64,000 nucleotides of DNA from Salvelinus alpinus (lineage: Eukaryota; Chordata; Actinopteri; Salmoniformes; Salmonidae): positions 13,778,076 to 13,842,075 of the forward strand of contig NC_092099.1 of NCBI RefSeq assembly GCF_045679555.1, read 5' to 3'. This document shows, piece by piece, positions 3,201 through 53,568 of this stretch. A program made the translations under genes and the position numbers. Below the pieces are notes generated by a model. The model saw nothing but the letters and a program-made list of their open reading frames with translations. It was not told the origin of the DNA and did not search any database. Position 1 is the first letter of the stretch. Every line of letters begins with the position of its first letter.

Positions 3201-6200
3201 TGACTCAGAGAAATAGGACATTACATTAGAGCCTTGGAAAGATGATGTAATGGTAGGATGTGCAGTAATCATATACCATTTTATACTGAATAAAAATATA
3301 AACGTAACATGCGACAATTTCAAAGATTTTACTGAGTGACAGTTCATAGAACTGTCACTCCTAATCTATGGATTTCGCATGACTGGGCAGGGGTGCAGCC
3401 ATGTTTGGTTGGTGTGTTGACAAAACTGCACATTTTGGGGTGGCCTTTTATTGTCCCCAGCACAAGGTACACCTGTGCAATGATCATGCTGTTTAATCAG
3501 CTTCTTGATATGCCACGCCTGTCAGGTGGATGCAATATCTTAGCAAAGGAGAAATTTATTTTTATTTTTATTTTACCGTTATTTTACCAGGTAAGTTGAC
3601 TGAGAACACGTTCTCATTTGCAGCAACGACCTGGGGAATAGTTACAGGGGAGAGGAGGGGGATGAATGAGCCAATTGTAAACTGGGGATTATTAGGTGAC
3701 CATGATGGTTTGAGGGCCAGATTGGGAAGTTATGGTCACTAACAGGGTTGTAAACAAATTTGTTCACAAAACTTGAGAGAAATAAGCTTTTTGTGCGTAT
3801 AGAAAATATCCGGGATCTTTTATCTCAGCACATGAAACATGGTTGCCTTGCGTTTATATTTTTGTTCTGATGCTCAAAATGCATTTAGATCACGCTTCAT
3901 CTTGGAATCATGGGGATGTCTTGGAGGTCATTTTCAAGGAGGGAAAGTTGGGAGCACTTGGTTGGTGTTTAGTCACAGTGGGACACTTCCTTTATTTCTT
4001 TAGTGCACTACTTTTGACCATGGTCCATAGGCACTAAATAGGTGCCATGTGGGACTTAAGCCCAAGTCTCACCTGCCATGGACAGTGGCCGTCTTCTCCA
4101 CTCCGCCTGGCAGAACCACAACCAGAGTCAGGTCCTGTTCAAGTAGGTTCTCCTTCTGGTCCATGGTCATCAGAGGATATCCTGATACGGAGTGTCTCTG
4201 GGAGAGGCCTGCACCTTCCAGACCCTTCACTGATACTGGGGGAGAGGGTGCCTTGCTTTTGGTTGACACTCTGTCAGTAGGAAAAGGGACAAGATGAGCC
4301 TCACACAATAATATTAAACACAATAGTATCAGCCTGTTACAGTCTAAAACAATATGGTAGTATTTCACTGGTATGAATACACATCTTTCCCTGATGGTAT
4401 CCATATAAATAAGAAGCATTGAACAGGTAGAAAAAGAGAAGGCAGGGGCTCTGGGTAATTTTTGTCACGAAAATAATTCTAACCGTTCGCAATAGATCTA
4501 AAAACGAAATTTCATGAGACATGATTCTGTTATTGCATAAAACAATCTGATTACACATAACACTGCATTATATAGCATGAAAGGAATCCTTTCTTCCCAA
4601 CTTAAAGTAAGCAGCTATTAGATGAAAGAGCTTGGGCTCCCTTTGCAAACAAGTCACAAGACACACGTGCAGTGATTTGTCCATTGGGCCTGAGGACGGT
4701 GTGGTGAAAGGTAACCCATGTGAAACAGAAACGAAAGGTGTAGCACAGTGATCAACGTTTCTGTTCTCTAAATGTCTCTCTCTAGGTGTCTTTTAAAACC
4801 CATCAGTCTCCCCTTTAATCACTGAATCAGCAATATTATTATCAAATTGTATTTGTCACATGCGCCGAATACAACAGACATTACCGACTAGCCCTTTCTC
4901 AACGATACAGAGTATAGTGGCATCTGCTGTGTGGTGTGTACAACTGGATAGAAAAGTCTGACCATCTGTCAGAAGAAATGTGTGGCCAATCCTTACTTTT
5001 ATACTAATTACACCATCATCATTAAAACTGACTGGGCTAACTGGGGAGAGTGTAATCATATGGCCGATTTTTCTTTTCTTTAGGTTGGATTGAAAATGTT
5101 TCTCACTGTACAGACAGATTAGCTCTAACCTGACTGCAACAGCTAACGCAGTCAGCCAAAGCAAACATGCATGCGTTTTAAACGGACAAATCTCCTGATA
5201 AGATGTCACACACTTTGTCCTTCAGAGGGATACTGCACATTACAGTATGAGAAACTGGCAGTGAAATGCAATATACTGTACATAACGCTTCACTAAAACA
5301 ATCTATAAATTAAAGTTGTCATTAATTATTCAAGGTGTTATTCAGTGGGGAGTAACACAATTGACTAAGCTGCGTGACCTGTAGTGTATGTGATTTCCTC
5401 AGAGGTCACAACTTACTCTGAAAAATATAAATTTTTGCAATTTCTTAACTTGATGGGCCCAGGCCCACTAAGCCCTGACTTGAAATTAATATTTGTTCCT
5501 TCAGGGGGGGTTCTATTCTCAAATATTCCATGGTTCTAATCATGTAATCACACCAGTAAGCCCCCACCTTCATTCACAATAGTTGCACAATGATGCAATT
5601 AAAAGTCATTTAACTGCTTTAGATTTTAACAAAGCGTGGGACTTATGCGTCCAGAAGCCTAGAGCATCAGAAACAGACATTAGGCAGGGAAGACAAAGTG
5701 TTAAATCAACAGTTATATTCAACACACAGACAAAACTAGTCTAGAACCACCAGAAATGTCCATGAATAGCCTTGTGACTAAATATGTCAACAGACGCCCC
5801 CAGCTAAAACAGACAGACTACTGTGGTCCACACCAGGCTAGGGTACAAAGTCCAGATTTCATGTCTCTAAAAGTTTGTTTGGCAATGCGATTATGGGAAT
5901 GAGCTACTCTCTCCCTATCTAAATGTTATACCATTCGCCGAAATTATGCCAAGATTTACTTTCTTTCCACAGATAGGAAACAACATTTAAGTGGCATGTC
6001 TACAAATTACAACAGTGATACTTTAATAGACTCTGGAAACAAAAAGCAGGTGCCAATATAACCAATACAATAATGTAAATACTAGTCAAAAGTCCTCAAA
6101 AGACAAACAGAATATTGTTTGGTTTATAAAACAGCCTAGCTTTTCTCAGGAGCCTTATCCAGACACTTCTGAGAACATGTGACGGAGGCAGAGACAAAAG

Positions 6201-27140: not shown

Positions 27141-28307
27141 TATGTGAAACTTTATTGAAGGAGCCAATTGAATTTATTGAAGGAGCCGTATGACTTTCAT
27201 TAGTATTTTCAACATCTGAAGTGAACAATTCGCGTTTACATTTATACTTTTGAAATAGCCTAAATGTTATAATAGGCCTATTGCAATTTCCTAAATATAC
27301 CTACTATAAAATAACGTAGGGTAACTAACCACCCGGGGTAATCCCCAATAATTCTCACAGAAACCACATGTCACCAGCATTTTTTTTCAACACTTTCTCT
27401 GGCTACCAATGCTCTTTCTCAACTAAAAATGGTATCTGTCTCATCAACAAACAAAAAATTGTCACTCTAACAAAACAATTCTGAGTTAAGTTGATCTAAT
27501 ATTTTGTAATTTAGAAAAAGTTATATATACCATTAGGAAAGCCTAAAGATAAACAACCACTTGTTTACAGATACACATTGTAATCCGTTTTTAATAAAGC
27601 AGTAACATTTAAGGTGACCCAATGCAAGTCAGTGGTACCTAAATTACCATATTTCAAATCATGCCCAAACCATCTACAAGTAACTTCATTGAGTTACAGT
27701 TATTTTTTAGATACATGTTTTTCCCATGTTACCCCAGTACTTGGGAAAAACGCCCCTTTTCTAAAAAAACAACAACATATTTCATGAAATAACAAAAAAA
27801 AATGTAAACTGTAGCTACTTATTTCCATGTATAGTTTTTGCCTAAGCATGACCATCATCCACATACCACATTTTTACCAAACGTAGCTTTATTGTGTCAG
27901 AAATTGAACATTGTTCTTAGGTGCGCACTACCAGTGGACAAACACCTATAATCTGGATCTTAATCTTAATCATTGAAGGGTGAATAATGACGTTAAGGCA
28001 AGAGGACAATACTGTAGTTAGCCTAGCTTTCAAATTGAGCCTTTTTATGATAGTTTTATTCATGTTATAGCGACATCATGTGGTAGGTAAATACATTCAA
28101 GGTGGAACTTCACTGTTTCACAATTTGATTTACAAATTGATAAATGCATTGCGTATTGGCACATTATCACACATACGTCATAGTCAAATAGTAAATTATG
28201 ACACACACATTCCTTGCAGAGTTAATAATACATTTGTTTCTGCAGTCTTACATGTTGTACCAGAGTAGGGAAATAAGTTACAACAATTCAAAGGACATCT
28301 GACTTAC
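27141..28307. other. Interval between slc38a11 and cobll1, nothing recognised
   Basis: The final slc38a11 exon should lie here if retained; I could not find its hydrophobic peptide in any frame. No repeat family was recognised. Confidence 0.5.
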
Positions 28308-28439
28308 ATTTAACACCAGAACAATACCCAGACAGTCGTAGGCCAAGGAAAGCAATGTGCACGCTGCAACTATAAGCAAGGTGACAGCCACATGGGCATG
28401 GTTGTTGAGAGACCCATTAAAAAAAACATTGGATATTAC
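28308..28439 (-). pseudogene. slc38a11: slc38a11 exon trace (last one recognised)
   Basis: 132 bases (44 codons), acceptor tatgtttgtag, donor GTAAGT, open. It encodes VISNVFFNGSLNNHAHVAVT, then LLIVAACTLLSLAYDCLGIV to Leu-Asn. Human has VIANVFFGG...DCLGIVLELN. The following exon (the last membrane spans) was not found between 28.3 and 26.2 kb. Confidence 0.9.
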
Positions 28440-28548
28440 CTACAAACATAAGAGAGAATAAAGAACTGTCTTTCGTACGTGATTCGCATTCAAATGAATG
28501 AACACTGAGCCTGAAGTTATGAAGTGCCATATTATCAGTAAAATCATA

Positions 28549-30066
28549 CAGTTCATTCGGAAAGTATTCAGACCCGTTGAATTTTTCCACGTTTTGTTAC
28601 GTTACAGCCTTATTCTAAAATTGATTTTCTCATAAATTTACACACATAATAATTACAAAGCAAAAACAGTTTTTTTTGTGCAAATGTATATGAAAAAAAG
28701 AACATTGAAATATAACATTTACATAAGTACTCAGACCATTTACTCAGTACTTTGTTGAAGAACCTTTGGCAGCGATTACAGCCTTGAGTGTTCTTCAGTA
28801 TGACGCTACAAGCTTGGCACACCTATATTTGGGGACTTTCTTCTATTCTTCTCTGCAGATCCTCTCAAGGTCTGTCAGGTTGGATGTGGAGCATCGCTGA
28901 ACAGCTATTTTAAGGTCTCTACAGAGATGTTAGATTGGGTTCAAATCCAGGCTCTGGCTGGGCCTCGAGCCATTCCTGTGTTGTCTTGGCTGTGTGCTTA
29001 GGGTCGTTGCCCTGTTGGAAGGTGAACCTTCGCCCCAGTCTGAGGTCCCGAGTGCTCTGGAACAGGTTTTCATCAAGGATCTCTGACTTTGCTTTGTTCA
29101 TCATTCCCTCGATCCTGACTAGTCTCCCAGCCCCTGCCGCTGAAAAACATTCCCACAGCATGATGCTGCCACCACCATGCTTCACCGAAGGGATGGTGCC
29201 ATGTTTCCTGGCATTCAGGCCAAAGAGTTCAATCTTGGTTCTCATGGTCTGAGAGGCCTTTAGGAGCCTTTTGGCAAATTCCAAGCGGGCTGTCATGTGC
29301 CTTTTACTGAGAAGTGGCTTCCGTCTGGCCTCTCTACCATAAAGGCCTGATTAGTGGAGTGCTGCAGAGATGGTTGTCCTTCTGGAAGGTTCTCCCATCT
29401 CCACAGAGGAACTCTGAAGCTGTCAGAGTGACCATCGGGTTCTTGGTCACCTCCCTGACGAAGGCTCTTCTCACCCAATTGCTCAGTTTGGGCGGGTGGC
29501 CAGCTCTAGGAAGAGTCTTGGCGGTTCCAAACTTCTTCTATTTAAGAAGGATGGAGGCCACTGTGTTCTTGGGGACCTTCAATGTTGCAGAAATGTTTTG
29601 GTACCCTTCCCCAGATCTGTGCATCAACACAATCCTGTCTCAGAGCTCTACGGACAATTCCTTCAACCTCATGGCTTGGCCTTTGCTCTGACATGCACTG
29701 TCAACTGTGGGACCTTATATAGACAGGTGTTTGCCTTTCCAAATCATGTCCATTCAATTGCATTTACCACAGGTTGGACTCCAATCAAGCTGTAGAATCA
29801 CCTCAAAGATGATCAATGGAAACAGGATGCACCTGAGCTCAATTTCGAGTCTCATTGCAAAGGGTCTGAATACTTATGTAAATAAGGTATTTTTTTGTTA
29901 TATCTTTTTTGCACACATTTTTTTTAAACGGTTTTCACTTTGTCATTATGAGGTATTGTGTGTAGATTGATGAGGGAAAAAAATATTTCACCCATTTTAG
30001 AATAAGGCTGTAAAGTAACAAAATGTGTAAAGAGTCAAGGGTTCTGAATATTTTCAGAATGCGCTG
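28549..30066 (-). mobile_element. Tc1-like transposon, full length, degenerate
   Basis: Both inverted ends are present (cagttcattcggaaagtatt; tttcagaatgcgctg), TA on each side. Transposase blocks are readable on the minus strand from about 29.68 to 28.86 kb but in several frames; 28919-29296 carries [12 protein letters not shown] and [12 protein letters not shown], so the second catalytic Asp is still seen. Confidence 0.85.
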
Positions 30067-31265
30067 TATCTAAGTTCCCTATCTACCATGCTAGACTGCT
30101 AGCTACACCAGGCGTGAGAGTTTGCTGTATACCACAGTAGCAATATTGACTAGCTAGTAGACAGCTAACGTTAGTATGTTGATATAACCAAAGATACTTG
30201 TAACTAGCTAGCTAATTTGGGGACAAGCATAATATAGATTTAAGTTGTCCAAATGGACAAGTTAAAAAAAAAATAAAAAAACACTATATCAAACAATTAC
30301 TCCAATCAGAATTAGAGCAGAGAGGCCAACATTGGAATAATATTAAAATCTATTTTTAATATAATAATTTTAAAAAGTGTAGGTGTAGGTGATATGCATA
30401 TTGGTTACAACCTCATGTCCAAACCGATGCTGACATGAGGGATTCGCCAGAAAATGTAGCTACACTTTAATGACACTTTTAACTACATCAATATGCACTA
30501 AATGCCAGTCATTTTGACAATTATAAGGAAGGAAATGTACATTAATGTCTAAAGGCTTGATTCTGTCGACATAGGCTACTCGAGGCACAGTTCATTCAGA
30601 TCAAATGGTCACAAGCCCAGAGAGTGGAGGACCATGCCTGTTGCGAACCGCACATCAGCTACTGTACCTTGAATCTGAGTGGAGGGGGTCAGCATTTTGA
30701 AACTATAGAGAACAAAAAGATAAATGCAACATGTAGAGTGTTGGTCCCATGTTTCATGAGCTGAAACAAAAGACACCAGAAATTGTCCATGTACACATAA
30801 AGCTTATTTCTCTCAAATTCTGTGCAGAAATATGTTTACAACCCTGTTAGTGAGCATTTCTCCTTTGCCTAGATAATCTATCCACCTGACAGGTGTGGCA
30901 TATCAAGAAGCTGATTCGAAAGCATGATCATTACACAGATGCACCTTGTGCTGGGGATAATCAAAGGCCATTCTAAAATGTGCAGTTGTGTCACACAACA
31001 CAATGCCACAGATGTCTCAAATTTTGAGGGAGAGTTCAATTGGTATGCTGACTGCAGGATTGTCCACCAGAGCTGTTGCCAGCTGTGAACCTCCACATCC
31101 AGCTTTTTCTCCTTCGGGATCGTTTGAGTACAGCCACCCAGACAGCTGATGAAACTGTGGGTTTGCACAATCAACAGCCTGATTAACTCGATGCGAAGGA
31201 TATGACTTGGTTTTGAGCCCTGGAGGGAATTATTTTATGAAGACATATTTGGTTGCAATTGCAAT
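30067..31265. repeat. Inverted copy of 50.15-51.30 kb
   Basis: The reverse complement of about 50150-51302, nearly throughout: for example accctgttagtgagcatttc here and a matching inverted stretch near 50.59 kb, and ttgagccctggagggaatta pairing with 50222. It includes AGCTAG-rich text (30.1-30.2 kb) and part of a Tc1-like element of the 3.3-kb type. Confidence 0.85.
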
Positions 31266-31889
31266 GTTGACATTTTTTTTGAGTCTCTCTACCATAAAGG
31301 CCTGATTGGTGGAGTGCTGCAGAGATGGTTGTCCTTCTGGAAGGTTATCCCATCTCCACAGAGGAACTCTGGAGCTCTGTCAGAGTGACCATTGGGTTCT
31401 TGGGCACCTCCCTAACCAGGGCCCTTTTCCCCCAATTGCTCAGTTTGACCAGGCAGCCAGCTCTAGGAAGAGTCTTGGTGGTTCCAAACTTCTTCCATTT
31501 AAGAATGATGGTGGCCACTGTGTTCTTGGAGACCTTCAATGCTGCAGATCTGTACCTCGACACAATCCTGTCTTGGAGCTTTACGGGCAATTCCTTTGAC
31601 CTCACGGCTTGGCTTTTGCTCTGACATGCACTGTCAACTGTGGGACCTTATATAGACCAGTGTGTGCCTTTCCCAATCATGTCCAATCAATCGAATATCA
31701 ATGGAAACGATGCACCTGAGCTTAATTTCAAGTCTCATAGCAAAGGGTCTGAATACTTATGTAAATATATATTTTTTTGTATTATAATTTTTTTGCTCAA
31801 ATTTATAAAAACATGTCTTTGCTTTTTCATTATGGGGTATTGTGTGTAGATTGATGAGGGGGTATGAATACTTTCAGAATGCACCGTAC

Positions 31890-31990
31890 CTCTCGAGTCA
31901 CAAAACACTAGAGAGGACAAGTTATTATACTGATGCCAAAACAGAAGTAAACAAAAGCATAGCCAGGTCATCGTTTCTGCAGTAGTTTTC
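31890..31990 (-). pseudogene. slc38a11: slc38a11 exon trace with frameshift and TAG
   Basis: From 31990 the frame reads ENYCRNDDLAM, matching human ENYCRNDDL. The conserved sequence then continues in another frame as CFGISIITCPL, TAG (31910-31908), CFVTRE; human has PMECFVTRE, so Glu became a stop. The distance between the two conserved Glu positions is 80 bases instead of 81, a 1-base deletion. No AG is visible upstream where the acceptor is expected. The donor GAG|GTA is the insertion site of the composite transposon at 28549-31886. Confidence 0.87.
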
Positions 31991-32081
31991 AAAGAAAAAG
32001 AGATAAGAGGTCAGAAAAAGAACACTTAGTGGAGAGTGACTGGAGACATACCATGAGAGTATTCTATGTGTTGTGTTTTAC

Positions 32082-32234
32082 CTTGAGTGTACCCAGTGAA
32101 GGTAGCATAGCCAGTCACAGCAAACAGAGCACTGACAATCAGAGAAGAACCAACAGACGTGAGTGACACGAGACCAAGACTTGGTTCCTCCAGAGAGCCA
32201 TAGATCATAAAGCTGTTGTGATGGCTGATATAGG
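32082..32234 (-). pseudogene. slc38a11: slc38a11 exon trace (HHNSF...SLEEP)
   Basis: 153 bases with acceptor ttttgcag and donor GTAAAA, open throughout. It encodes YISHHNSFMIYGSLEEPSLG, a hydrophobic membrane segment, then GYATFTGYTQ. Human has ICHHNSFLVYSSLEEP...CGYLTFTGFTQG. Alone this exon looks functional; its neighbours on both sides are broken. Confidence 0.92.
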
Positions 32235-32389
32235 CTGCAAAACAAAAGTATATAGCAAAGTATTACAATATATCAATAGTCCAAGTTACATTTTTGTGTT
32301 GTTGTTTTGTGTGGATTTCTGCTATTATGAAACTTGATTGGCATTATCATACAATATGAAGCTGTACACACATAGGCTATATTAGAAGA
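32235..32389. other. slc38a11 intron remnant
   Basis: Short AT-rich non-coding interval between two exon traces. Confidence 0.4.
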
Positions 32390-32450
32390 GAAGTCAAAAG
32401 ACAACACCAACAGCCTAAATTGCATTCCATCTTGTAAATGCTCATGCATT
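32390..32450 (-). pseudogene. slc38a11: slc38a11 exon relic with two nonsense codons
   Basis: Reading from 32447 gives Ala, TGA, Ala-Phe-Thr-Arg-Trp-Asn-Ala-Ile, TAG (32417-32415), Ala-Val-Gly-Val, then a 2-base gap and Ser-Phe. Human has AWVFAKPNAIQAVGVMSF, so the Trp codon TGG became TGA and the Gln codon CAG became TAG. Position between the neighbouring exons is correct. Boundaries are approximate. Confidence 0.75.
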
Positions 32451-32620
32451 CAGTGTAGGGGGACTGGACACAAAGTCATTGGATTAACATTTTGTTAGCC
32501 ATTTTAACATTTTCAAATTCTAGAGGAAGTGGTTTCAATAGTCGTTTATTTGACTGAAATATAAAATAAAAATAGAATGCATTTCAGATTGATTAGTAGA
32601 ATGTGATATAGCGTGTGTGA

Positions 32621-34113
32621 GTCAGTGGCGGTTGTTGCCGTTTAAGACGAGGGAGGATGATAATTTTTTAATGAGCATGGCCTTATTTCTATTAAGTATT
32701 GGGTGACTGTAATTCATATTCCATTCACCCAACTCAATGTAATATCGATACATTTAGGCTACTACATGATACTCCAATTTTCCCTGTACCCATCATGAGG
32801 GTACTACAACATAGCCTATGAATGAAAGTTTCAACGTAGCTGCACAGATTGAGAGGATTTTGAGTAATCAAGTTGACAGACAGTGACACATTCAATATCG
32901 CCTTGCACACTCTTGCCTGCATCTAGCTGATCTAGTCTAACAGCTGCAAATGAGAGCTTCTATTGGACAAATTCAGGTATGTTTTTCCCCGTTTCATTCC
33001 GTTTGCTTTTGTTGAAGAAACATTTTTCAACAAAATCGGCAGAATTATTACACCCCTGATCACACGAGAACACAGTTCACTTTCATTACAGCCACATAAA
33101 AGCAGCATGCTCACTTTGCTCGTTGTATACTGTATATAATTCCTTCTCGCAGCTATCTATGGCTATGTGCTCTCCTCCTCTTCCCCTTTTCCCTTCACTT
33201 GTGGACTTCAATGCACAACACATCAGCTGTCTGTGACCAGGTGAAAAAACCTTTCCAAGCCCAACCTTCATATCATGACCGCTAACCGCTACACACAGCC
33301 TACATCATTGCCACGTCATAGTCAACATAGCTACTAGATCTAACACATTAGTAAACCCGCTACAATCATGCAGTACAGTGTACAGTCAGAAAGCAGTTTA
33401 GCAGTTACGCCGGCGGGCCCCGGGGGCAATCCATTAATAAAGCCAAAAGCTTACCTTGACATGGAGGACTTACAGTGTTGGATAGTCATAGACAGCTAGC
33501 TAATATGGCATCCCTCGTTGTTTGAGCAGGGTGTTTGAGTAGGCTAAACTAGCTAGCTAAGTGAAAGTTTAATTTTTTTTTATCTCTCTCTCTCTCTCAA
33601 ATTGCTCAACTATTGTCTTTCTCTCACTTTGAGTCAACTATTCACCACATTTTACGCACTGCAGTTCTAGCTATCTGTAGCTAATGCTTTCAGTACTAGT
33701 TTCATTCACTGATCCTTTGATTGGGTGGACAACATGTCAGTTCATGCTGCAAGAGTTCTGATAGGTTGGAAGACATCCTCCGGAAGTTGTCATAATTACT
33801 GTGTAAGTCTATGGAAGGGGGTGAGAACCATGAGCCCCCTAAGTTTTGTATTGAAGTCAATGTACCCAGAAGAGGACACAAGCTAGCTGTCCTCTGGCTA
33901 CACCATGGTGCTACCCTACAGAGTGCTGCTGAGGCTACTGTAGACCTTCATTGCAAAACAGTGTGTTTTAATCAATTATTTGGTAAAGGCGATATATTTA
34001 GTATGGTTCTATCTAAAAAGGATAACTTTTTAAATGTTTCACTATTTACATTTTTATGAAATTCACTGAGGATGGTCCTCCCCTTCCTCCTTTGAGGAGC
34101 CTCCACTGGTGTG
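32621..34113. mobile_element. Probable TIR element, about 1.5 kb, non-coding
   Basis: The left end (gtcagtggcggttgttgccg) and the inverted right end (caccagtggaggctcctcaa) resemble each other, and both are followed inwards by a gagga/ggagg-rich stretch. The interior has TAGCTAGC-rich text and no ORF. The superfamily is uncertain. Confidence 0.45.
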
Positions 34114-34146
34114 AGGGAATAGATTTTGACAGTGTTATTATATACA

Positions 34147-34534
34147 TGTCACGTTCGTCGTATGGAGGAAGAGAGGAGGACCAAGGCGCAGCGTGATAGT
34201 AATACATTCTTCTATTTATTATAACGAAACGAAGAACACTTGACAAACTATACAAAAAACAACAAAACGAACGTGAAGCTATATACGAAAAGTGCAGACA
34301 CAGGCAACTTACATATAGACAATAACCCACGAAATACCCAACGGAATATGGCTGCCTAAATATGGTTCCCAATCAGAGACAACGATAAACAGCTGCCTCT
34401 AATTGAGAACCAATCCAGGCAACCATAGACATACAAACACCTTGACAAGACAAAACACATACATCCCCCATGTCACACCCTGACCTAACCAAAATAATAA
34501 AGAAAACAAAGATAACTAAGGTCAGGGCGTGACA
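34147..34534. mobile_element. Solo LTR, TGTCACG family
   Basis: Begins TGTCACG and ends CGTGACA with a 5-base target duplication ATACA on each side (34142-34146 and 34535-34539). 388 bases. TG...CA ends and a 5-base duplication mark an LTR. The same family occurs at 35612-36013 and 60382-60751. The right-hand duplication overlaps the splice donor of the slc38a11 exon at 34539. Confidence 0.85.
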
Positions 34535-34538
34535 ATAC

Positions 34539-34618
34539 ATCTGTGGTCCTAGGGTAGCTGTTCTGGTGATTACAGTGATAAGGATCAAAACAGTCAACAC
34601 CATGGACAGTAAGGACAC
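34539..34618 (-). pseudogene. slc38a11: slc38a11 exon trace with lost splice acceptor
   Basis: It encodes VSLLSMVLTVLILITVITRT then ATLGPQ; human has VSLISTGLTTLILGIVMARAISLGPH. The two bases before GTG are TG, not AG. The nearest upstream AG would add an in-frame TGA. Donor GTATT survives, but a solo LTR was inserted 3 bases beyond it (34534). Confidence 0.85.
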
Positions 34619-34711
34619 CAAGAATCACATAGACAGGTGCTTTAGCTCAGAAATTGAAGAATGAGTCATTGACTCCTTAAATCAATGTAACAATATGTGA
34701 TTAAGTCTTAC

Positions 34712-34818
34712 ATTTCCCAGCTTTGATATATTCCGGAAAAGAGACAGAGGAAGCGTGAACAGAATGGTGGATACTGAGATGACAAAATGTCTCACTGCAA
34801 GTGCGGGGCCCGGCCCAA
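34712..34818 (-). pseudogene. slc38a11: slc38a11 exon trace (LPLSLFRNISKLG)
   Basis: 107 bases, exactly the length inferred from human phases. It encodes RHFVISVSTILFTLPLSLFR then NISKLGN; human has GRHFIIGLSTVTFTLPLSLYRNIAKLGK. Acceptor tttgcag and donor GTAAGA are intact. The first residues are a Gly/Pro-rich run unlike the human sequence. Confidence 0.9.
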
Positions 34819-35015
34819 CTGCAAATAACATTTATGAAAAATATGAATAAGCAACATACAATAACAAATGTGGCCTTAGTGTTTTGTGCTTAATTTAGCA
34901 AAACTTTGACCTATTTTTTGACTGTCACTGCATTAGCATATCAATGCACATCGCTAAGTTATGGCTTGATATTGTTCAGATATATTACATTAAAGTAAAA
35001 TGTGCCATATTATAC

Positions 35016-35079
35016 CTCCAGGTAGTCTGAAATACTTTGGTCAATGTGTCACCAGCTATGATGTTGTAGCTGATAACAG
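35016..35079 (-). pseudogene. slc38a11: slc38a11 exon trace (NIIAGDTL) with 2-base deletion
   Basis: It encodes AVISYNIIAGDTLTKVFQ; human has AMISYNIIAGDTLSKVFQ. Acceptor cttccccag and donor GTATAA are usable. Length is 64 bases where the family phases require 66, so the join to the next exon is out of frame; the loss lies in the last few codons. A Tc1 element begins 16 bases upstream of the acceptor (at 35096), within the polypyrimidine tract. Confidence 0.88.
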
Positions 35080-36169
35080 CTGGGGAAGAAACATACAGTT
35101 GAAGTCGGAAGTTTACATACATTTAGGTTGGAGTACTCCACAAGTTTCTTGTTAACAAACTATAGTTTTGGCAAGTCGGTTAAAACATCTACTTTGTGCA
35201 TGACACAAGTAATTTTTCCAACAATTGTTTACATACAGATTACTTCACTTATAATCCACTGTATCACAATTCCAGTGGGTCAGAAGTTCACATACACTAA
35301 GTTGACTGTGCCTTTAAACAGCTTGGAAAATTCCAGAAAATGATGTCATGGCTTTAGAAGCCTCTGATAGGCTAATTGACATCATTTGAGTCAATTGGAG
35401 GTGTACCTGTGGATGTATTTCAAGGCCTACCTTCGAACTCAGTGCCTCTTTGCCTGACATCATGGGAAACTCAAAAGAAATCAGCCAAGACCTAAGAAAA
35501 TAAAATGTAGACCTCCACAAGTTTGGTTCATCCTTGGGAGCAATTTCCAAACACCTGAAGGTACCACATTCATCTGTACAAAAAATAGTACGCAAATATA
35601 AACACCATGGGTGTCACGGCCGTTGTAAGGAGGAGACCAAGGTGCAGCGCGGTATGCGTACATTCTTCTTTATGTCAGAATGAACACTGAACAAACGAAC
35701 AAAATAACAAAATGAACCGTGAAGCTAATATGAGTACTGCAGACAGGCAACTAAACATAGAACAAGAACCCACAAACACCAAAGGGAAAATGGCTTCCTA
35801 AATATGATCCCCAATCAGAGACAACGATAAACAGCTGCCTCTGATTGGGAACCATATCAGGCCACCATAGACATACAAATCACCTAGACCTACAAAAACC
35901 CTAGACATACAAAAAACCCTCGACAATACAAAAACTAACGTACCCACCCTAGTCACACCCTGATCTAACCAAAATATAAAGAAAACAGAGATATCTCAGG
36001 TCAGGGCGTGACAGTACCCCCCACCAAAGGTGTGGACTCCCGGCCGCAAACCTGAACCTATAGGAGAGGGTCCGGGTGGGCATCTACCCTCGGTGGTGGC
36101 TCCGGTTCTGGACGCAGCCCCTCCTCTTTACGCTGATCCCTCCGCCTTTGTAGAACCGGACCGCGGATC

Positions 36170-36440
36170 ATCGCCGGAGGCTCTGGACTGTGGATCCGTC
36201 GCCAGAAGCCACGGACTGGGACCGTCGCCGGAGACCCCGGACTGGGGACCGTCGCCGGAGGCCCCGGACTGGGGATCATCGCCGGAGGCTCCGGACTGTG
36301 GCCCGTCGTTGGAGGCTCCGGACTGTGAAACGTCGCTGGAAGCTCCGGACTGGGTACTGTCACCGGAAGCTCTGGACTGGGTACTGTCGCCGGAAGCTAT
36401 GGACTGGGAACGGTCGCCGGAAGCTCTGGACTGTGGAAGC
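36170..36440. repeat. 27-base minisatellite, about 10 copies
   Basis: The unit is close to gtcgccggaggccccggact plus ggggatc, 27 bases = 9 codons. On the plus strand it reads SPEAPDWGP-type repeats, on the minus strand SPEPPATVP-type repeats, which is why ORFs exist both ways. Confidence 0.85.
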
Positions 36441-36460
36441 GCACTGGACGCCTGATGCAT

Positions 36461-37645
36461 GGTGCCGGAACTGGTGGTACCGGGCTGAGGACATGCACCT
36501 CAGAGCGAGTGCGGGGAAGAGGCACAGCCGTACTGGACTGTGGAAGCGCACTGGAGGCCTGATGCATGGTGCCGGAACTGGTGGTACCGGGCTGAGGACA
36601 CGCACCTCAGGGCGAGTGCGGGGAAGAGGCACAGGCCGTACTAGACTGTGGAAGCGCACTGCAGACCTGATGCGTGGTGCCGGAACTGGTGGTACCGGGC
36701 TGATGACACGCACCTCAGGGCGAGTGCGGGGAAGAGGCACAGGCCGTACTGGACTGTGGAATCGCACTGGAGGCCTGATGCGTGGTGCCCGGAACTGGTG
36801 GTACCGGGCTGAGGATACGCACCTCAGGGCGAGTGCAGGGAAGAGGCACATGCCGTACTGGACTGTGGAATCACACTGGAGGCCTGATGCGTGGTGCCGG
36901 AACTGGTGGTACCGGGCTGAGGACACGCACCTCAGGGCGAGTGCGGGGAAGAGGCAGAGGCCGTACTGGACTGTGGAATCGCACTGGAGGCCTGATGCGT
37001 GGTGCCGGAACTGGTGGTACCGGGCTGAGGACACGCACCTCAGGGCGAGTGCGGGGAAGAGGCACAGGCCGTACTGGACTGTGGAAGCGCACTGGAGGCC
37101 TGATGCGTGGTGCCGGAACCGGTGGTACCGGGCTGATGACACGCATCTCAGGGCGAGTGCAGAGAGGAGGCCCAGGACGTACTGGACTGTGGAATCGCAC
37201 TGGAGGCCTGATGCGTGGTGCCGGAACTGGTGGTACCGGGCTGAGGACACGCACCTCAGGGCGAGTGCGGAGAGGAGGCCCAGGACGTACTGGACTGTGG
37301 AAGCGCACTGGAGGTCTGATGCATGGTGCCAGCACTGGTGGTACCGTGCTGGGGACACGCACCTCAGGGCGAGCACGGAGAGGAGGCACAGGACGTACTG
37401 GACTGTGGAATCGCACTGGAGGCCTGATGCGTGGTGCCGGAACTGGTGGTACCGGGCTGAGGACACGCACCTCAGGGCGAGTGCGGAGAGGAGGCCCAGG
37501 ACGTACTGGACTATGGAGGCGCACTGGAGGTCTGATGCATGGTGCCAGCACTGGTGGTACCGTGCTGGGGACACGCACCTCAGGGCGAGCACGGAGAGGA
37601 GGCACAGGACGTACTGGACTGTGGAGGCGCACTGGAGAACTGGAG
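36461..37645. repeat. 108-base minisatellite, 11 copies
   Basis: Units start with ggtgccggaactggtggtac or the variant ggtgccagcactggtggtac at 36461, 36568, 36676, 36784, 36893, 37001, 37109, 37217, 37325, 37433 and 37541. The period is 108 bases (36 codons); the first unit is one base short and the fourth one base long. The last four units alternate two variants, forming a 216-base higher-order repeat. Confidence 0.93.
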
Positions 37646-38051
37646 CTTAGAGCTGGCACACTGCGTCCTGGCTGGATGCTCACTTGCGCCCGGCAAGTGC
37701 GAAGAGATGGAATAGAGCGCACCGGACTATGAATGCGAACTGGAGACACCGTGCGCATCACTGCGTAACACGGTGTCTGACCAGTCACACGTTCCCCAGC
37801 ACGCCCGCTCTGCAGCGCTCGTAATGCTAGCACCTCTCTCCGGAATCTTGCGTCGAAATCCTCATCCGACTCCCTGACTGGCTCTGGTTCGCTCCTTGGC
37901 TCCGCCGACTGCTCCATGTACCGCCCCCCCCCCCCCCCCCCCAAATGAACGTACTTTGGTGCGAAAGTGCAAATCAATCCCAGAACAACAGCAAAAGACC
38001 TTGTGAAGATGCTGGAGGAAACCGGTACAAAATGATCTATATCCATAGTAA

Positions 38052-38384
<333 letters not shown>

Positions 38385-38487
38385 TAGGAACATTATGTGG
38401 ATATATTGAAGCAACATCTCAAGTCATCAGTCAGGAAGTTAAAGCTTGGTCGCAAATGGGTCTTCCAAATGGACAATGACCCCAAAC

Positions 38488-40211
38488 AACTCTCTCTCTC
38501 CAGATGAAATCTCGCGTCTTGTGACGGCAAGGCCGCCCAACAACCTGCCCGCTTGACCCTATCCCCTCCTCTCTTCTCCAGACCATTTCCGGAGACCTTC
38601 TCCCTTACCTCACCTCGCTCATCAACTCATCCTTGACCGCTGGCTACGTCCCTTCCGTCTTCAAGAGAGCGAGAGTTGCACCCCTTCTGAAAAAACCTAC
38701 ACTCGATCCCTCCGATGTCAACAACTACAGACCAGTATCCCTTCTTTCTTTTCTCTCCAAAACTCTTGAACGTGCCGTCCTTGGCCAGCTCTCCTGCTAT
38801 CTCTCTCAGAATGACCTTCTTGATCCAAATCAGTCAGGTTTCAAGACTAGTCATTCAACTGAGACTGCTCTTCTCTGTGTCACGGAGGCGCTCCGCACTG
38901 CTAAAGCTAACTCTCTCTCCTCTGCTCTCATCCTTCTAGACCTATCGGCTGCCTTTGATACTGTGAACCATCAGATCCTCCTCTCCACCCTCTCCGAGCT
39001 GGGCATCTCCGGCGCGGCCCACACTTGGATTGCGTCCTACCTGACAGGTCGCTCCTACCAGGTGGCGTGGCGAGAATCTGTCTCCGCACCACGTGCTCTC
39101 ACCACTGGTGTCCCCCAGGGCTCTGTTCTAGGCCCTCTCCTATTCTCGCTATACACCAAGTCACTTGGCTCTGTCATATCCTCACATGGTCTCTCCTATC
39201 ATTGCTATGCAGACGACACACAATTAATCTTCTCCTTTCCCCCCTCTGATAACCAGGTGGTGAATCGCATCTCTGCATGTCTGGCAGACATATCAGTGTG
39301 GATGACGGATCACCACCTCAAGCTGAACCTCGGCAAGACGGAGCTGCTCTTCCTCCCGGGGAAGGACTGCCCGTTCCATGATCTCGCCATCACGGTTGAC
39401 AACTCCATTGTGTCCTCCTCCCAGAGTGCTAAGAACCTTGGCGTGATCCTGGACAACACCCTGTCGTTCTCAACTAACATCAAGGCGGTGACCCGTTCCT
39501 GTAGGTTCATGCTCTACAACATTCGCAGAGTACGACCCTGCCTCACGCAGGAAGCGGCGCAGGTCCTAATCCAGGCACTTGTCATCTCCCGTCTGGATTA
39601 CTGCAACTCGCTGTTGGCTGGGCTCCCTGCCTGTGCCATTAAACCCCTACAACTCATCCAGAACGCCGCAGCCCGTCTGGTGTTCAACTTTCCCAAGTTC
39701 TCTCACGTCACCCCGCTCCTCCGCTCTCTCCACTGGCTTCCAGTTGAAGCTCGCATCCGCTACAAGACCATGGTGCTTGCCTACGGAGCTGTGAGGGGAA
39801 CGGCACCTCCGTACCTTCAGGCTCTGATCAGGCCCTACACCCAAACAAGGGCACTGCGTTCATCCACCTCTGGCCTGCTCGCCTCCCTACCTCTGAGGAA
39901 GTACAGTTCCCGCTCAGCCCAGTCAAAACTGTTCGCTGCTCTGGCACCCCAATGGTGGAACAAACTCCCTCACGACGCCAGGTCAGCGGAGTCAATCACC
40001 ACCTTCCGGAGACACCTGAAACCCCACCTCTTTAAGGAATACCTAGGATAGGATAAAGTAATCCTTCTAACCCCCCCCCCCCTTAAAAGAGTTAGATGCA
40101 CTATTGTAAAGTGGTTGTTCCACTGGATATCATAAGGTGAATGCACCAATTTGTAAGTCGCTCTGGATAAGAGCGTCTGCTAAATGACTTAAATGTAAAT
40201 GTAAATGTAAA
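38488..40211 (+). mobile_element. RSg-1-type LINE, 5' truncated
   Basis: Inserted in the Tc1 between gacaatgacccca and acttccaaagttgtggc. It ends with gtaagtcgctctggataaga, gcgtctgctaaatgac and three copies of aatgta. This 3' tail is shared with the HpaI SINE at 45.5 kb, and RSg-1 is the LINE known as the source of that SINE tail. A C run at 40071-40082 lies in the 3' UTR. Confidence 0.8.
38633..40051 (+). CDS. RSg-1-type reverse transcriptase, uninterrupted 472-codon frame
   Basis: The frame encodes the reverse transcriptase half of a LINE ORF2: NNYRPVSLLSFLSKTLERAV, LLDLSAAFDTVNHQILLSTL (first catalytic Asp), TGVPQGSVLGPLLFSLY, CYADDTQL (catalytic YADD), LNLGKTELLF and NLGVILD, then the usual C-terminal region ending LKPHLFKEYLG. 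The endonuclease is missing because the copy is 5' truncated, so it cannot retrotranspose alone. The Met at 38633 is only the first Met in an already open frame. An undamaged frame suggests a fairly young insertion. Confidence 0.85.
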   Translation: MTAGYVPSVFKRARVAPLLKKPTLDPSDVNNYRPVSLLSFLSKTLERAVLGQLSCYLSQNDLLDPNQSGFKTSHSTETALLCVTEALRTAKANSLSSALILLDLSAAFDTVNHQILLSTLSELGISGAAHTWIASYLTGRSYQVAWRESVSAPRALTTGVPQGSVLGPLLFSLYTKSLGSVISSHGLSYHCYADDTQLIFSFPPSDNQVVNRISACLADISVWMTDHHLKLNLGKTELLFLPGKDCPFHDLAITVDNSIVSSSQSAKNLGVILDNTLSFSTNIKAVTRSCRFMLYNIRRVRPCLTQEAAQVLIQALVISRLDYCNSLLAGLPACAIKPLQLIQNAAARLVFNFPKFSHVTPLLRSLHWLPVEARIRYKTMVLAYGAVRGTAPPYLQALIRPYTQTRALRSSTSGLLASLPLRKYSSRSAQSKLFAALAPQWWNKLPHDARSAESITTFRRHLKPHLFKEYLG

Positions 40212-40730
40212 TACTTCCAAAGTTGTGGCAAAATGGCTTAAGGACAACAAAGTCAAGGTATTGGAGTGGCCATCACAAAGCCCTGACCTCAATCCTATAG
40301 AAAATTTGTAGTCAGAACTGAAAAAGTGTGTCCGAGCAAGGAGGCCTACAAACCTGACTCAGTTACACCAGCTCTGTCAGGAGGAATGGGCCAAAATTCA
40401 CCCAACTTATTGTGGGAAGCTTGTGGAAGGCTACCCTAAACATTTGACCCAAGTTAAACAATGTATAGGCAATGCTACCAAATACTAATTGAGTGTATGT
40501 AAACTTCTGACCCACTGGGAATGTGATGAAAGAAATAAATGCTGATCTAAATAATTGTCTCTACTATTATTCTGACATTTCACATTCTTAAAATGAAGTG
40601 GTGATCCTAACTGACCTAAGACAGGGGATTTTTACTCTGATTAAATGTCAGGAATTGTGAAAAAATGAGTTTAAATGTATTTGGCTAAGGTGTATGTAAA
40701 CTTCCGACTTCAACTGTAGTTATGTTACAA

Positions 40731-40812
40731 TCCAAGTCCTCCCATACTGTACCTGTCCTCCCATACTGTACCTGTCCTCCCATACTGTACCTGTCCTCCC
40801 ATACTGTACCTG
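40731..40812. repeat. 19-base tandem repeat, about 4 copies
   Basis: The unit cctgtcctcccatactgta is repeated about four times without visible change. It fills the gap between the Tc1 right end (40716) and the LINE 5' end (about 40815). It could be host microsatellite or part of the LINE 5' end; the other LINE copy at 14.9 kb lacks it, which favours host. Confidence 0.85.
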
Positions 40813-40813
40813 A

Positions 40814-43800
40814 GATACCACCCGGCGCCGAAAAGAGATGGCTGCCTCGCTTCGTGTTCCTTGGAAAATATGCAGTATTTTGTTTTTTTACGTGTTATTT
40901 CTTACATCGGTACCCCGGGTAATCTTAGGTTTCATTACATACAGTCGGGAGGAACTACTGAATATACGATTAACGTCAACTCATCATCGTTCCTACCAGG
41001 AATATGACTTTCCCGAAACGGATCCAGTGTTTTGCCTTCCACACAATACAATGGATCTGATCCCAGCCGGCGACCCTGTGCGACGCCGAAAAAGGGGAAA
41101 ACGTGGCGGTCTCGTGGTCAGGCTTCGGAGACGGTCACATCGCGCTCCACTCCCTAGCATACTACTCGCCAATGTCCAGTCTCTTGACAATAAGGTTGAT
41201 GAAATCCGAGCACGGGTAGCATTCCAGAGAGACATCAGGGATTGCAACGTGCTCTGCTTCACGGAAACATGGCTAACTCAAGGGACGCTAACGGAGTCGG
41301 TGCAGCCAGCTGGTTTCTTCATGCATCGCGCCGACAGAAACAAACATCTTTCCGGTAAGAAGAGGGGCGGGGGGGTATGCCTTATGATTAACGAGAAGTG
41401 GTGTGATCATCATAACAACACACAAGAACTCAAGTCGTTCTGTTCACCTGATCTAGAACTCCTCACAATCAAATGTCGACCGCATTATCTACCAAGGGAA
41501 TTCTCGTCAATCATAATCACAGCCGTATACATTCCCCCCCAAGCAGACACATCGATGGCCCTGAACGAACTTTATCTGACTCTTTGTAAACTGGAAACCA
41601 CACACCCTGAGGCTGCATTCATCGTAGCTGGGGATTTTAACAAGGCTAATCTAAAAACAAAACTCCCTAAATTCTATCAGCATATCGATTGTGCTACCAG
41701 GGCTGGAAAAACACTAGACCATTGTTATACTAATTTCCGCGACGCTTATAAGGCCCTCCCCCGCCCCCCTTTCGGAAAAGCTGACCACGACTCCATTTTG
41801 TTGATTCCAGCCTACAAACAAAAACTCAAACAACAAGCTCCCGCGCTCAGGTCTGTTCAACGCTGGTCCGACCAATCTGAATCCACGCTTCAAGACTGCT
41901 TCGATCACGCAGATTGGAATATGTTCCGCATCGCGTCCAACAACAATATTGACGAATATGCTGATTCGGTGAGCGAGTTCATTAGGAAGTGCATTGACGA
42001 TGTCGTACCCACAGCAACGATAAAAACATTCCCAAACCAGAAACCGTGGATTGACGGCAGCATTCGCGTGAAACTGAAAGCGCGAACCACTGCTTTTAAC
42101 CAGGGCAAGGTGACCGGAAGCATGACCGAATACAAACAGTGTAGCTATTCTCTCCGCAAGGCAATCAAACAGGCCAAGTCTCAGTACAGAGACAAAATCG
42201 AGTCGAAATTCAACAGCTCAGACACAAGAGGTATGTGGCAGGGTCTACAGTCAATCACGGATTACAAAAAGAAAATCCGCCCCGTCGAGGACCAGGATGT
42301 CTTGCTCCCAGACAGGCTAAACAACTTTTTTGCCCGCTTTGAGGACAATACAGTGCCACTGACACGGCCCCCTACCAAAACCTGCGGGCTCTCCTTCACT
42401 GCAGCCGAGGTGAGTAAAACATTTAAACGTGTTAACCCTCGCAAGGCTGCAGGCCCAGACGGCATTCCCAGCCGCGTCCTCAGAGCATGCGCAGACCAGC
42501 TGGCTGGTGTGTTTACGGACATATTCAATCAATCCTTATCCCAGTCTGCTGTTCCCACATGCTTCAAGAGGGCCACCATTGTTCCTGTTCCCAAGAAAGC
42601 TAAGGTAACTGAGCTAAACGACTACCGCCCCGTAGCACTCACTTCCGTCATCATGAAGTGCTTTGAGAGACTAGTCAAGGACCATATCACCTCCACCCTA
42701 CCGGACACCCTAGACCCACTCCAATTTGCTTACCGACCCAATAGGTCCACAGACGACGCAATCGCAACCACACTGCACACTGCCCTAACCCATCTGGACA
42801 AGAGGAATACCCATGTGAGAATGCTGTTCATCGATTACAGCTCAGCATTTAACACCATAGTACCCTCCAAACTCATCATCAAGCTCGAGACCCTGGGTCT
42901 CGACCCCGCCCTGTGCAACTGGGTCCTGGACTTCCTGACGGGCCGCCCCCAGGTGGTGAGGGTAGGTAACAACATCTCCACCCCGCTGATCCTCAACACT
43001 GGGGCCCCACAAGGGTGCGTTCTGAGCCCTCTCCTGTACTCCCTGTTCACCCACGACTGCGTGGCCATGCACGCCTCCAACTCAATCATCAAGTTTGCGG
43101 ATGACACTACAGTGGTAGGCTTGATCACCAACAACGACGAGACGGCCTACAGGGAGGAGGTGAGGGCCCTCGGAGTGTGGTGTCAGGAAAATAACCTCAT
43201 ACTCAACGTCAACAAAACAAAGGAGATGATTGTGGACTTCAGGAAACAGCAGAGGGAGCACCCCCCTATCCACATCGACGGGTCAGTAGTGGAGAAGGTG
43301 GAAAGTTTTAAGTTCCTCGGTGTACACATCACGGACAAACTGAACTGGTCCACCCACACAGACAGCGTTGTGAAGAAGGCGCAGCAGCGCCTCTTCAACC
43401 TCAGGAGGCTGAAGAAATTCGGCTTGTCACCAAAAGCACTCACAAACTTCTACAGATGCACAATCGAGAGCATCCTGTCGGGCTGTATCACCGCCTGGTA
43501 CGGCAACTGCTCCGCCCACAACCGTAAGGCTCTCCAGAGGGTAGTGAGGTCTGCAGAACGCATCACCAGGGGCAAACTACCTGCCCTCCAGGACACCTAC
43601 ACCACCCGATGTCACAGGAAGGCCATAAAGATCATCAAGGACAACAACCACCCAAGCCACTGCCTGTTCACCCCGCTATCATCCAGAAGGCGAGGTCAGT
43701 ACAGGTGCATCAAAGCAGGGACCGAGAGACTGAAAAACAGCTTCTATCTCAAGGCCATCAGACTGTTAAACAGCCACCACTAACATTTAGCGGCCGCTGC

Positions 43801-44325
43801 CAACATACTGACCCAACTCCAGCCACTTTAAAAATGGGAATTGATGGAAATTATGTAAAAATGTACCACTAGCCACTTTAAGCAATGCCACTTAATACAA
43901 TGTTTACATACCCTACATTACCCATCTCATATGTATATATACTGTACTCTATATCATCTACTGCATCTTGCCATCTTTATGCAATACATGTACCACTAGC
44001 CACTTTAAACTATGCCACTTATGTTTACATACCCTACAGTACTCATCTCATATGTATATACCGTACTCTATACCATCTACTGCATCTGCCATGCCGTTCT
44101 GTACCACCACTCATTCATATATCTTTATGTACATATTCTTTATCCCTTTACACTTGTGTGTGTGTGTAAGGTAGTAGTGTGGAATTGTTAGGTTAGATTA
44201 CTGTTGGTTATTACTGCATTGTCGGAACTAGAAGCACAAGCATTTCGCTACACTCGCATTAACATCTGCTAACCATGTGTATGTGACTAATAAAATTTGA
44301 TTTGATTTGATTTGATTTGATTTGA
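40814..44325 (+). mobile_element. Full-length L2-like LINE with intact ORF
   Basis: It starts at about accacccggcgccgaaaaga just upstream of the ATG, has one ORF (40838-43783), a 540-base 3' UTR with repeated taccactagccactttaa text, and ends in (TTTGA/TTGAT) repeats at 44298-44325. gagat stands both before the 5' end and after the 3' end and may be part of a short target duplication. It lies in an slc38a11 intron, opposite to the gene. Confidence 0.88.
40838..43783 (+). CDS. LINE ORF2: endonuclease and reverse transcriptase, 981 codons, intact
   Basis: One uninterrupted frame. The apurinic-type endonuclease lies at about residues 105-320, with [22 protein letters not shown] (Glu near 142), IVAGDFNKANL (near 263) and the KADHDS end (near 314). 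The reverse transcriptase lies at about residues 560-830, with [32 protein letters not shown] (Asp near 664), [20 protein letters not shown] (near 721), FADDTTVVG (catalytic Asp-Asp near 752) and KFLGVHI. The C-terminus includes a Cys/His-containing segment (CIT...CSAHNRKAL; TTRCHRKAIKII). The first 35 residues are hydrophobic. All catalytic residues I can name are present, so it may encode active enzyme. The start is the first Met just after the element 5' end. Confidence 0.9.
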   Translation: MAASLRVPWKICSILFFYVLFLTSVPRVILGFITYSREELLNIRLTSTHHRSYQEYDFPETDPVFCLPHNTMDLIPAGDPVRRRKRGKRGGLVVRLRRRSHRAPLPSILLANVQSLDNKVDEIRARVAFQRDIRDCNVLCFTETWLTQGTLTESVQPAGFFMHRADRNKHLSGKKRGGGVCLMINEKWCDHHNNTQELKSFCSPDLELLTIKCRPHYLPREFSSIIITAVYIPPQADTSMALNELYLTLCKLETTHPEAAFIVAGDFNKANLKTKLPKFYQHIDCATRAGKTLDHCYTNFRDAYKALPRPPFGKADHDSILLIPAYKQKLKQQAPALRSVQRWSDQSESTLQDCFDHADWNMFRIASNNNIDEYADSVSEFIRKCIDDVVPTATIKTFPNQKPWIDGSIRVKLKARTTAFNQGKVTGSMTEYKQCSYSLRKAIKQAKSQYRDKIESKFNSSDTRGMWQGLQSITDYKKKIRPVEDQDVLLPDRLNNFFARFEDNTVPLTRPPTKTCGLSFTAAEVSKTFKRVNPRKAAGPDGIPSRVLRACADQLAGVFTDIFNQSLSQSAVPTCFKRATIVPVPKKAKVTELNDYRPVALTSVIMKCFERLVKDHITSTLPDTLDPLQFAYRPNRSTDDAIATTLHTALTHLDKRNTHVRMLFIDYSSAFNTIVPSKLIIKLETLGLDPALCNWVLDFLTGRPQVVRVGNNISTPLILNTGAPQGCVLSPLLYSLFTHDCVAMHASNSIIKFADDTTVVGLITNNDETAYREEVRALGVWCQENNLILNVNKTKEMIVDFRKQQREHPPIHIDGSVVEKVESFKFLGVHITDKLNWSTHTDSVVKKAQQRLFNLRRLKKFGLSPKALTNFYRCTIESILSGCITAWYGNCSAHNRKALQRVVRSAERITRGKLPALQDTYTTRCHRKAIKIIKDNNHPSHCLFTPLSSRRRGQYRCIKAGTERLKNSFYLKAIRLLNSHH

Positions 44326-44417
44326 GATTGAGACTGCTCAATCTCTTCAAATCTTGATGATAAGTATTTCTGATTTATTTTAAAATGTATTCTCCAATCA
44401 AGTACCAATGAAAGTAC

Positions 44418-44482
44418 AAGTGACTGGTAGCTTTTTGTCTCCGAAAGATTCCCTCCTTTTATCAACAAGATGATGAAATAGT
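44418..44482 (-). pseudogene. slc38a11: slc38a11 exon trace (LLIKGG segment)
   Basis: It encodes YFIILLIKGGNLSETKSYQS then Leu; human has DFSLVLLIKGG...TYQSL. Acceptor ccctgcag is good and enters in phase 1; the donor is taken as GTACTT after Leu. The family's next exon (GFPGYLL...LYPF) is absent from the roughly 200 bases of non-mobile sequence left in the following intron. Confidence 0.82.
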
Positions 44483-45024
44483 CTGCAGGGAATAAACAGA
44501 ACACCTAGCTGTTGACTTAAATTATTTGTATCATCAAAGGAGTTCATCACAATCGTCACCATACAAAACTCTCAGAAATCTTGCGATTTTATTATTTACA
44601 CATCCAACATACATGTACATATTGTTCAAAAAAGATATATATATTTGTAATATTTTGTTTCATTGAATTGACTGGAATGTTTGAATCCTACAACTTTGAG
44701 AGAATGTTGGAAGGGCAAAAGAAGAGGGGTAAAGTTTTTTAAAAGGAGAGAAAAAAGGCATTTGCAGTAGTCATGCGATCATGCAGAGGACAACCACCCA
44801 GGGGCTGTTCACTATGGCTGAGGTATGATGTTTTCTATTCTGCATGTTCTGAACTATATGGAAATTGCTTATCTTATTGGGTAATATGATCGATCATTGT
44901 ATAGGCCCACATTAACATGCAACAGGTGCTCCCCTCCAAAGAAGGGTGTCGTATCTATCCACCTCCCCATATTCTGTTGCGCCACATGATGCTCAAGCAA
45001 TTTAATGTGTAAACACCAATTTAC
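44483..45024. other. slc38a11 intron remnant
   Basis: Apart from the possible degraded exon at 44757-44817 nothing coding is seen. AT-rich. Confidence 0.4.
44757..44817 (-). pseudogene. slc38a11: slc38a11 possible degraded exon (first loop and TM2)
   Basis: After an acceptor-like cctcag the minus strand shows fragments that look like PLG, then VVLCMIA in a shifted frame, then TGA. The family has a Pro-Tyr-Ser...Gly-Phe-Pro-Leu-Gly...exon at this point. Part of it appears deleted. Order and spacing fit the relic, but the match is short and broken and could be chance. Confidence 0.3.
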
Positions 45025-45103
45025 CTATTATTCCAGATCCTATTATCGAATTGATTAAATTAAAAGAGGCTGAGGTCGTCCAACTTTTGACTTCTCCAAC
45101 CAC
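45025..45103 (-). pseudogene. slc38a11: slc38a11 exon trace, first transmembrane segment
   Basis: It encodes SWTTSASFNLINSIIGSGII followed by the first base of a Gly codon and a GTAAAT donor. Human SLC38A11 has SAALFNVVNSIIGSGIIG, the start of membrane segment 1 and the unwound substrate-binding motif of this fold. The exon body is intact. The left boundary (acceptor after acaaaag) is a guess. Confidence 0.85.
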
Positions 45104-45522
45104 CTTTTGTGAAGCAAGTAACGTTTTACCATCGCCATTCTCAATCTAGAGTGGTAAAATATCAAATTGTTAAAGTGTTTTGGTAGAATGGTGGTAATCG
45201 TGAGTATCAATAAAGGTTATGCTATTAGTATCGTAGCATTGAGTATTCTGGTCTCCACTTTTCTGTGTTGATGAATTCATTTTAATACAAGTGTTTACAT
45301 CAATTTATACATTTGCTGTCCGCATCTCTGCCGTGAAATTGTTTTGCTTGGCAGAATGTGCAAAACTTTGCTGATCTGAGTCGGTGAAGTCCGCCCATGA
45401 AAAACGATGGCAGCAATGGGTGTGTTCCAGATAGGTCTAGACAATTTCTGGACAGGCTTGCGCAAAGTACAACATCAGTATAGGCTACTACTGACGTGGT
45501 TCTTGAAATGTGAACTTACTTG

Positions 45523-52900: not shown

Positions 52901-53568
52901 ACATAGCTAGCCAGCTAGCTAACATCACATTGTGCATGGTGCTAAATAGCTAGCTTGCTACAGTACATTATCTAAGTTAGCTAACACAATTATCTCTGAC
53001 CAAGTCAGATGAATTAGCTATCTAGCTTGGGTTGTCCAATTTAGCTAGAAAACTAATTTGTCAGTAATATCATCATGTGAGATGTTAGTTGTTTCAACCA
53101 AAACCTATCACTGGCTAAATATGAACGGTGGCTAGCTAACATTAGCTAAACAACGAGCGCCTCTGGCAGGCATTGAGAAAGGTAGCTAATAATGTTGACC
53201 AACAGCAGCCCTTACAGCGAGTAACAAATAATTGCATATTTGACGGGTATTTTTTTAAAGTACCTATTTATCCATTTATCTCATTTAGTTAATAAATACA
53301 TATACAGAATGTATTTACAGAATATATAATGTAATTCATATTAGAAAGTCTCAACTGTTACTATATGTTTTCGTGGTGGATTTGACATATTTGTCTGGTA
53401 TTTTGAGGAATCTAATTTAGTCTAATCTAATTTAATCTAATTTAGTTCCTGAATAAAATACAGTAGATCAATTAATTTACAGAATAAATGTACAGCATGA
53501 ATATACATAATTTATGCTTTATTCTCTCTCTCTCTTCTCTCTCTTCTCTCCTCTCTCGCTCTCTCTAG
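52901..53568. other. AGCTAG-rich intergenic sequence
   Basis: Many TAGC/AGCTAG words (52.90-53.16 kb), a short taatct-type repeat (53.41-53.45 kb) and a CT-rich tract (53521-53566) that could serve as a polypyrimidine tract for the next feature. Confidence 0.4.

Follow-up and report, generated by a model that had tools for sequence, protein, structure and literature searches.

A decayed slc38a11 copy on C14 and its intact partner on C20 in Salvelinus alpinus

In work on the Atlantic salmon genome, pseudogenisation has been described as what appears to be the main way in which duplicates are lost, and a decayed partner was reported for 56% of 9,162 singletons (Lien et al. 2016, PMC8127823). 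The same study gives a similarity of about 87% for most of the duplicated regions in salmon (Lien et al. 2016, PMC8127823). In Arctic charr, cobll1-like, slc38a11 and scn2a-like genes lie side by side at 13.925-14.0 Mb of NC_036839.1, a neighbourhood that stands in a table of the selection section of a previous study (PMC10130564). The locus described here has the same three-gene neighbourhood, and the gene in that table may correspond to either of the two duplicated copies (PMC10130564). No report of this decayed slc38a11 copy was found among the titles and abstract openings listed for slc38a11, and a listing in the supplement of Lien et al. is possible.

The stretch analysed, hereafter the window, is 64,000 nucleotides long (C14:13778076-13842075), and the genome searched comprises 2.37 Gb in 928 contigs. 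Multi-exon remains of a slc38a11-like gene occupy positions 28308-45280 of the window on the minus strand, flanked by cobll1 and a sodium-channel gene. An earlier note made from the letters of the window had placed a decayed slc38a11 at 28308..45103; the remains were found there, and their end is moved outwards, as exon 1 reaches 45280. Ten remnant exons are colinear with those of a partner gene on C20, and 851 of the 949 aligned exon bases are identical. Because of this colinearity, a chance origin of the remnant is excluded. The name slc38a11 for the C14/C20 pair is putative, and it rests on gene order, on the side-by-side listing of the three genes in Arctic charr (PMC10130564) and on a resemblance to human SLC38A11.

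An intact partner within a colinear block

A complete slc38a11 was observed directly at C20:41202554-41206931 (L023 2554-6931), with 12 exons, GT-AG introns and an open frame of 1389 coding bases that encodes 462 residues plus the stop. Its product contains an Aa_trans domain (PF01490) over residues 36-422 of 462 (E 6.9e-61), and the solved structures nearest to it by sequence are those of SLC38A9, 6c08 (E 3.3e-11) and 7kgv (E 5.8e-11).

Genome searches with the readable pieces of the window gene recovered the window and one other locus, C20:41202789-41206561; the sole further row was a match on C31 (E 2.2). With the whole C20 product, 21 matches were retrieved at E <=1: C20 has ten of them, C14 has nine, and C9 (E 0.06) and C33 (E 0.08) have a single match apiece. 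Below E 0.05, the C20 product matches only C20 and C14 in the genome (26 of 26 candidates scored). Thus, neither the window-gene pieces nor the whole C20 product detected a third slc38a11 copy in the genome. The weak matches on C9, C33 and C31 were considered as extra copies and are presumably fortuitous or due to other members of the family. A genome search with the Pfam Aa_trans model yielded 116 candidates, of which 102 were scored, and 36 matches, with both the window gene and the C20 gene absent. Genes broken up into short exons therefore escape this search, and the copy count of slc38a11 was made without it.

The duplication extends to the neighbours of the gene. In blastn comparison of the window with C20:41185001-41240000, we obtained an extended series of colinear matches, with the two contigs oppositely oriented, running from cobll1 through slc38a11 and beyond, together with many repeat matches. 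Over the 55 kb compared in this way, cobll1 and slc38a11 are directly seen to be colinear on C14 and C20. Beyond the window on C14, the next gene opens with a sodium-channel-like N-terminus (L027 2663-2923), an exon that is probably that of a sodium channel, with an open frame. This exon is also present at the matching C20 place, with 93% identity, which gives both contigs the scn / slc38a11 / cobll1 order. On the other side, pieces of cobll1 match the Pfam Cobl domain, and the following stretches lie within the window:

4075..4260, minus strand: cobll1 exon stretch, open in both copies
1753..1959, minus strand: cobll1 exon stretch, open in both copies
1375..1599, minus strand: cobll1 exon with the Cobl ubiquitin-like domain, open in both copies
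792..887, minus strand: cobll1 exon stretch, open in both copies
371..613, minus strand: cobll1 exon stretch, open in both copies

With a large exon outside the window (in L028), the cobll1 stretches tested number six, and both copies are free of stops in all of them. Of the earlier proposal that the decayed gene stands in conserved synteny with an intact cobll1, the synteny is thereby borne out and the intactness is shown in part.

Three further stretches of the window were recorded. At 26111-26163, on the minus strand, a short frame from an ATG ends in RRRLSGSR and is followed by a donor-like GTAC; C20 has a similar frame, and this is possibly a first exon of cobll1. At 58351-58425, on the plus strand, an open stretch from an ATG (MEIIEASNMATAVEPPPYVKSTIDK) precedes a donor-like GTAAC in a region that aligns with C20, and may be a 5' exon of a neighbouring gene. 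Exon-like open stretches at 53561-54032, on the plus strand, with a splice-donor-like site at their end as judged by eye, are possibly part of a mobile element.

Exon-by-exon state of the window copy

Lesions were called by exon-by-exon alignment with the C20 partner, and missing exons were judged from the flanking blastn matches. The state of each exon, all as present in the assembly, is as follows:

45239..45280, minus strand: exon 1; start codon retained, donor gone in a deletion (alignment with C20 exon 1)
45025..45145, minus strand: exon 2; frame and both splice sites intact, in-frame 3-base difference
44570..44630, minus strand: site of exon 3, which is missing (75 coding bases in the partner)
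44406..44482, minus strand: exon 4; 58 of 135 bases deleted, frameshift
35094..44328, unstranded: expansion of intron 4, repeat-filled, with multi-copy blastn matches
35016..35079, minus strand: exon 5; 2-base deletion
34712..34818, minus strand: exon 6; free of disabling differences, both splice sites retained
34539..34618, minus strand: exon 7; acceptor AG changed to TG
32395..32463, minus strand: exon 8; TGG (Trp) changed to TGA, CAG (Gln) changed to TAG, 2-base deletion, donor gone
32082..32234, minus strand: exon 9; 7-base and 2-base deletions that jointly restore the frame, splice sites retained
31890..31995, minus strand: exon 10; acceptor deleted, 2-base insertion, in-frame 3-base loss, GAG (Glu) changed to TAG
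28308..28439, minus strand: exon 11; free of disabling differences, both splice sites retained
28233..28263, minus strand: site of exon 12, the last coding exon, which is missing (279 bases in the partner)

About 15 disabling differences from C20 were counted in nine of the 12 exons, none falling in exons 2, 6 and 11; this is a count of differences and not of mutations, as adjoining gaps may be one event, and it takes the open C20 state as ancestral, a reasonable assumption. Among them are two deleted exons (3 and 12), the 58 bases gone from exon 4, indels in four others (5, 8, 9 and 10), three stops that arose by substitution and four broken splice sites, namely the donors of exons 1 and 8 and the acceptors of exons 7 and 10. 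On its sequence, the window copy is unable to encode the whole protein. Introns are retained in the exon-by-exon alignment with C20, which rules out a processed pseudogene.

Comparison with the partner confirms the several independent lesions of the earlier note and shows that they were undercounted. The 2-base loss in exon 5, the TG acceptor before 34618 (exon 7) and the two stops at 32444 and 32417 in exon 8 were all found again. In exon 10, where the note had placed lesions at 31990-31908, the Glu-to-TAG change holds, and the supposed 1-base loss is replaced by a 2-base insertion relative to the partner, with an equal effect on the frame. Instead of the single absent exon noted before, two are wholly missing, as judged from the flanking alignments and the search with the C20 product. 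At the exon 3 site, 61 window bases stand opposite 124 partner bases with an alignment score of only 18.8, and the flanking alignments close up. The genome search with the whole C20 product gave no C14 match centred on exon 3; its C14 match to exon 4 begins seven residues ahead of that exon. At the exon 12 site, the flanking alignments leave 31 window bases opposite 375 partner bases, and in the C20-product search no C14 match of its own was retrieved for this exon, the match of exon 11 extending 16 residues beyond, through stops. A degenerate exon 3 near 44650-44710, suggested by eye, was ruled out, as the partner sequence that aligns there is intron 2.

Repeats have also entered the window copy. 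Intron 4 is 149 bases long in the C20 partner vs about 9.3 kb in the window, and its filling presumably consists of nested transposable elements. A multi-copy repeat detected by blastn starts a few bases past the exon 7 donor of the window copy. Within the expanded intron, at 36426-37637, lies a tandem array of a 108-base unit (11.2 copies, 93% matches); a similar array was found by blastn on C20 near 41210818.

Divergence of the copies and origin of the pair

In eight intron or 3' stretches of the slc38a11 pair, 874 of 1017 bases are identical (85.9%). Exons are less diverged than introns (98/949 vs 143/1017 differences, Fisher P 0.013); the pair was therefore constrained for part of its history. 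From 306 codons (309 gap-free ones, of which three bore stops and were dropped), we obtained Ks 0.195, Ka 0.086 and dN/dS 0.443 (95% 0.294-0.661). The cobll1 pair gave Ks 0.171 and dN/dS 0.419 (six stretches, 762 codons), the latter falling to 0.278 over the 319 codons of the five smaller stretches, with the large exon left out. Two further Aa_trans ORF pairs, located on other contig pairs, showed Ks of 0.24 and 0.35 and dN/dS of 0.07 and 0.044. These are the four best matches of the Aa_trans model search, taken as stop-to-stop frames with a few non-coding bases included; they look like one gene kind and are not a broad control.

The dN/dS check named in the earlier note was thus run between the two copies, and it does not discriminate. 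The slc38a11 value is below 1, about equal to that of cobll1, and is by itself without sign of relaxed selection. This measure does not separate a decayed from a living gene here because it also includes changes on the constrained branch of the partner and changes that precede the inactivation. Under simulated neutral change, 1.4 stops are expected per 49 changes; three were observed (P of three or more 0.17), which agrees with neutral decay and shows no more.

The window copy is very probably an unprocessed duplicate pseudogene from a whole-genome duplication, which was most likely that of the salmonids. The earlier note had found it plausible that the salmonid doubling left two copies, of which this is one, and this is supported by a complete second copy on another chromosome-size contig, by a duplicated block with the same neighbours and by the divergence of the pair. 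Its Ks and its intron identity of about 86% are in line with the salmonid doubling, given the value of about 87% in the literature (PMC8127823), and we infer this doubling to be the one involved. A whole-genome duplication would have left two slc38a11 copies, on C14 and C20. With the intact C20 partner supplying the protein, selection on the C14 copy would have lapsed, and this copy may then have gathered deletions, splice-site losses, stops and repeat insertions. The loss was presumably neutral, and the C14 copy probably makes no protein.

That the pair was made by a later segmental duplication is very unlikely. This origin draws some room from the span examined, since the blastn comparison with the window covered 55 kb of C20, out of 85 kb of C20 in all, and the mechanism of duplication is deduced. 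Against a later event, however, stand Ks values of 0.17-0.20, of the same order as in the other transporter ORF pairs (0.24, 0.35), and an intron identity near the published salmonid value.

There is a still fainter chance that the remnant retains a role, either through a shortened protein or through a regulatory transcript. Three exons (2, 6 and 11) lack any disabling difference, and exon divergence is below intron divergence. Nevertheless, exons 3 and 12 and 58 of the 135 bases of exon 4 are lost, four splice sites are disrupted and exons 8 and 10 contain stops, while lower exon divergence is expected in any case from constraint acting on the partner and in the time preceding inactivation. 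Equally faint is the chance that the decayed C14 locus is still transcribed into a regulatory RNA acting on the intact C20 copy, although this would, if true, help to explain why the exons are less diverged than the introns. Least credible of all is an assembly or sequencing error hiding an intact C14 gene. Read errors could account for small indels taken by themselves, but hardly for three substitution stops, the TG acceptor and the absence of two complete exons and of 58 bases from another, with flanking introns that align smoothly.

Comparison with described duplicate loss and SLC38 transporters

Decay of the C14 copy after a probable whole-genome duplication makes the slc38a11 case one of ordinary duplicate loss by pseudogenisation, a common fate of genes after genome doubling that has been described before. 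It is a clear example, in which the intact twin and the neighbouring genes serve as built-in controls, with little meaning beyond the case. As a caution, studies of slc38a11 in this species should be based on the C20 copy.

Like the SLC38 transporters, of which SLC38A9 is the nearest solved, the C20 partner has an Aa_trans domain; the window copy differs from them in that it cannot encode the full protein. The present case concerns a single gene in one genome and in this differs from the survey of Ss4R singletons (PMC8127823). It resembles the singletons reported there in that one copy is intact and the other, in the colinear place where it would be expected, has decayed, with a similarity of about 86-87% (PMC8127823).
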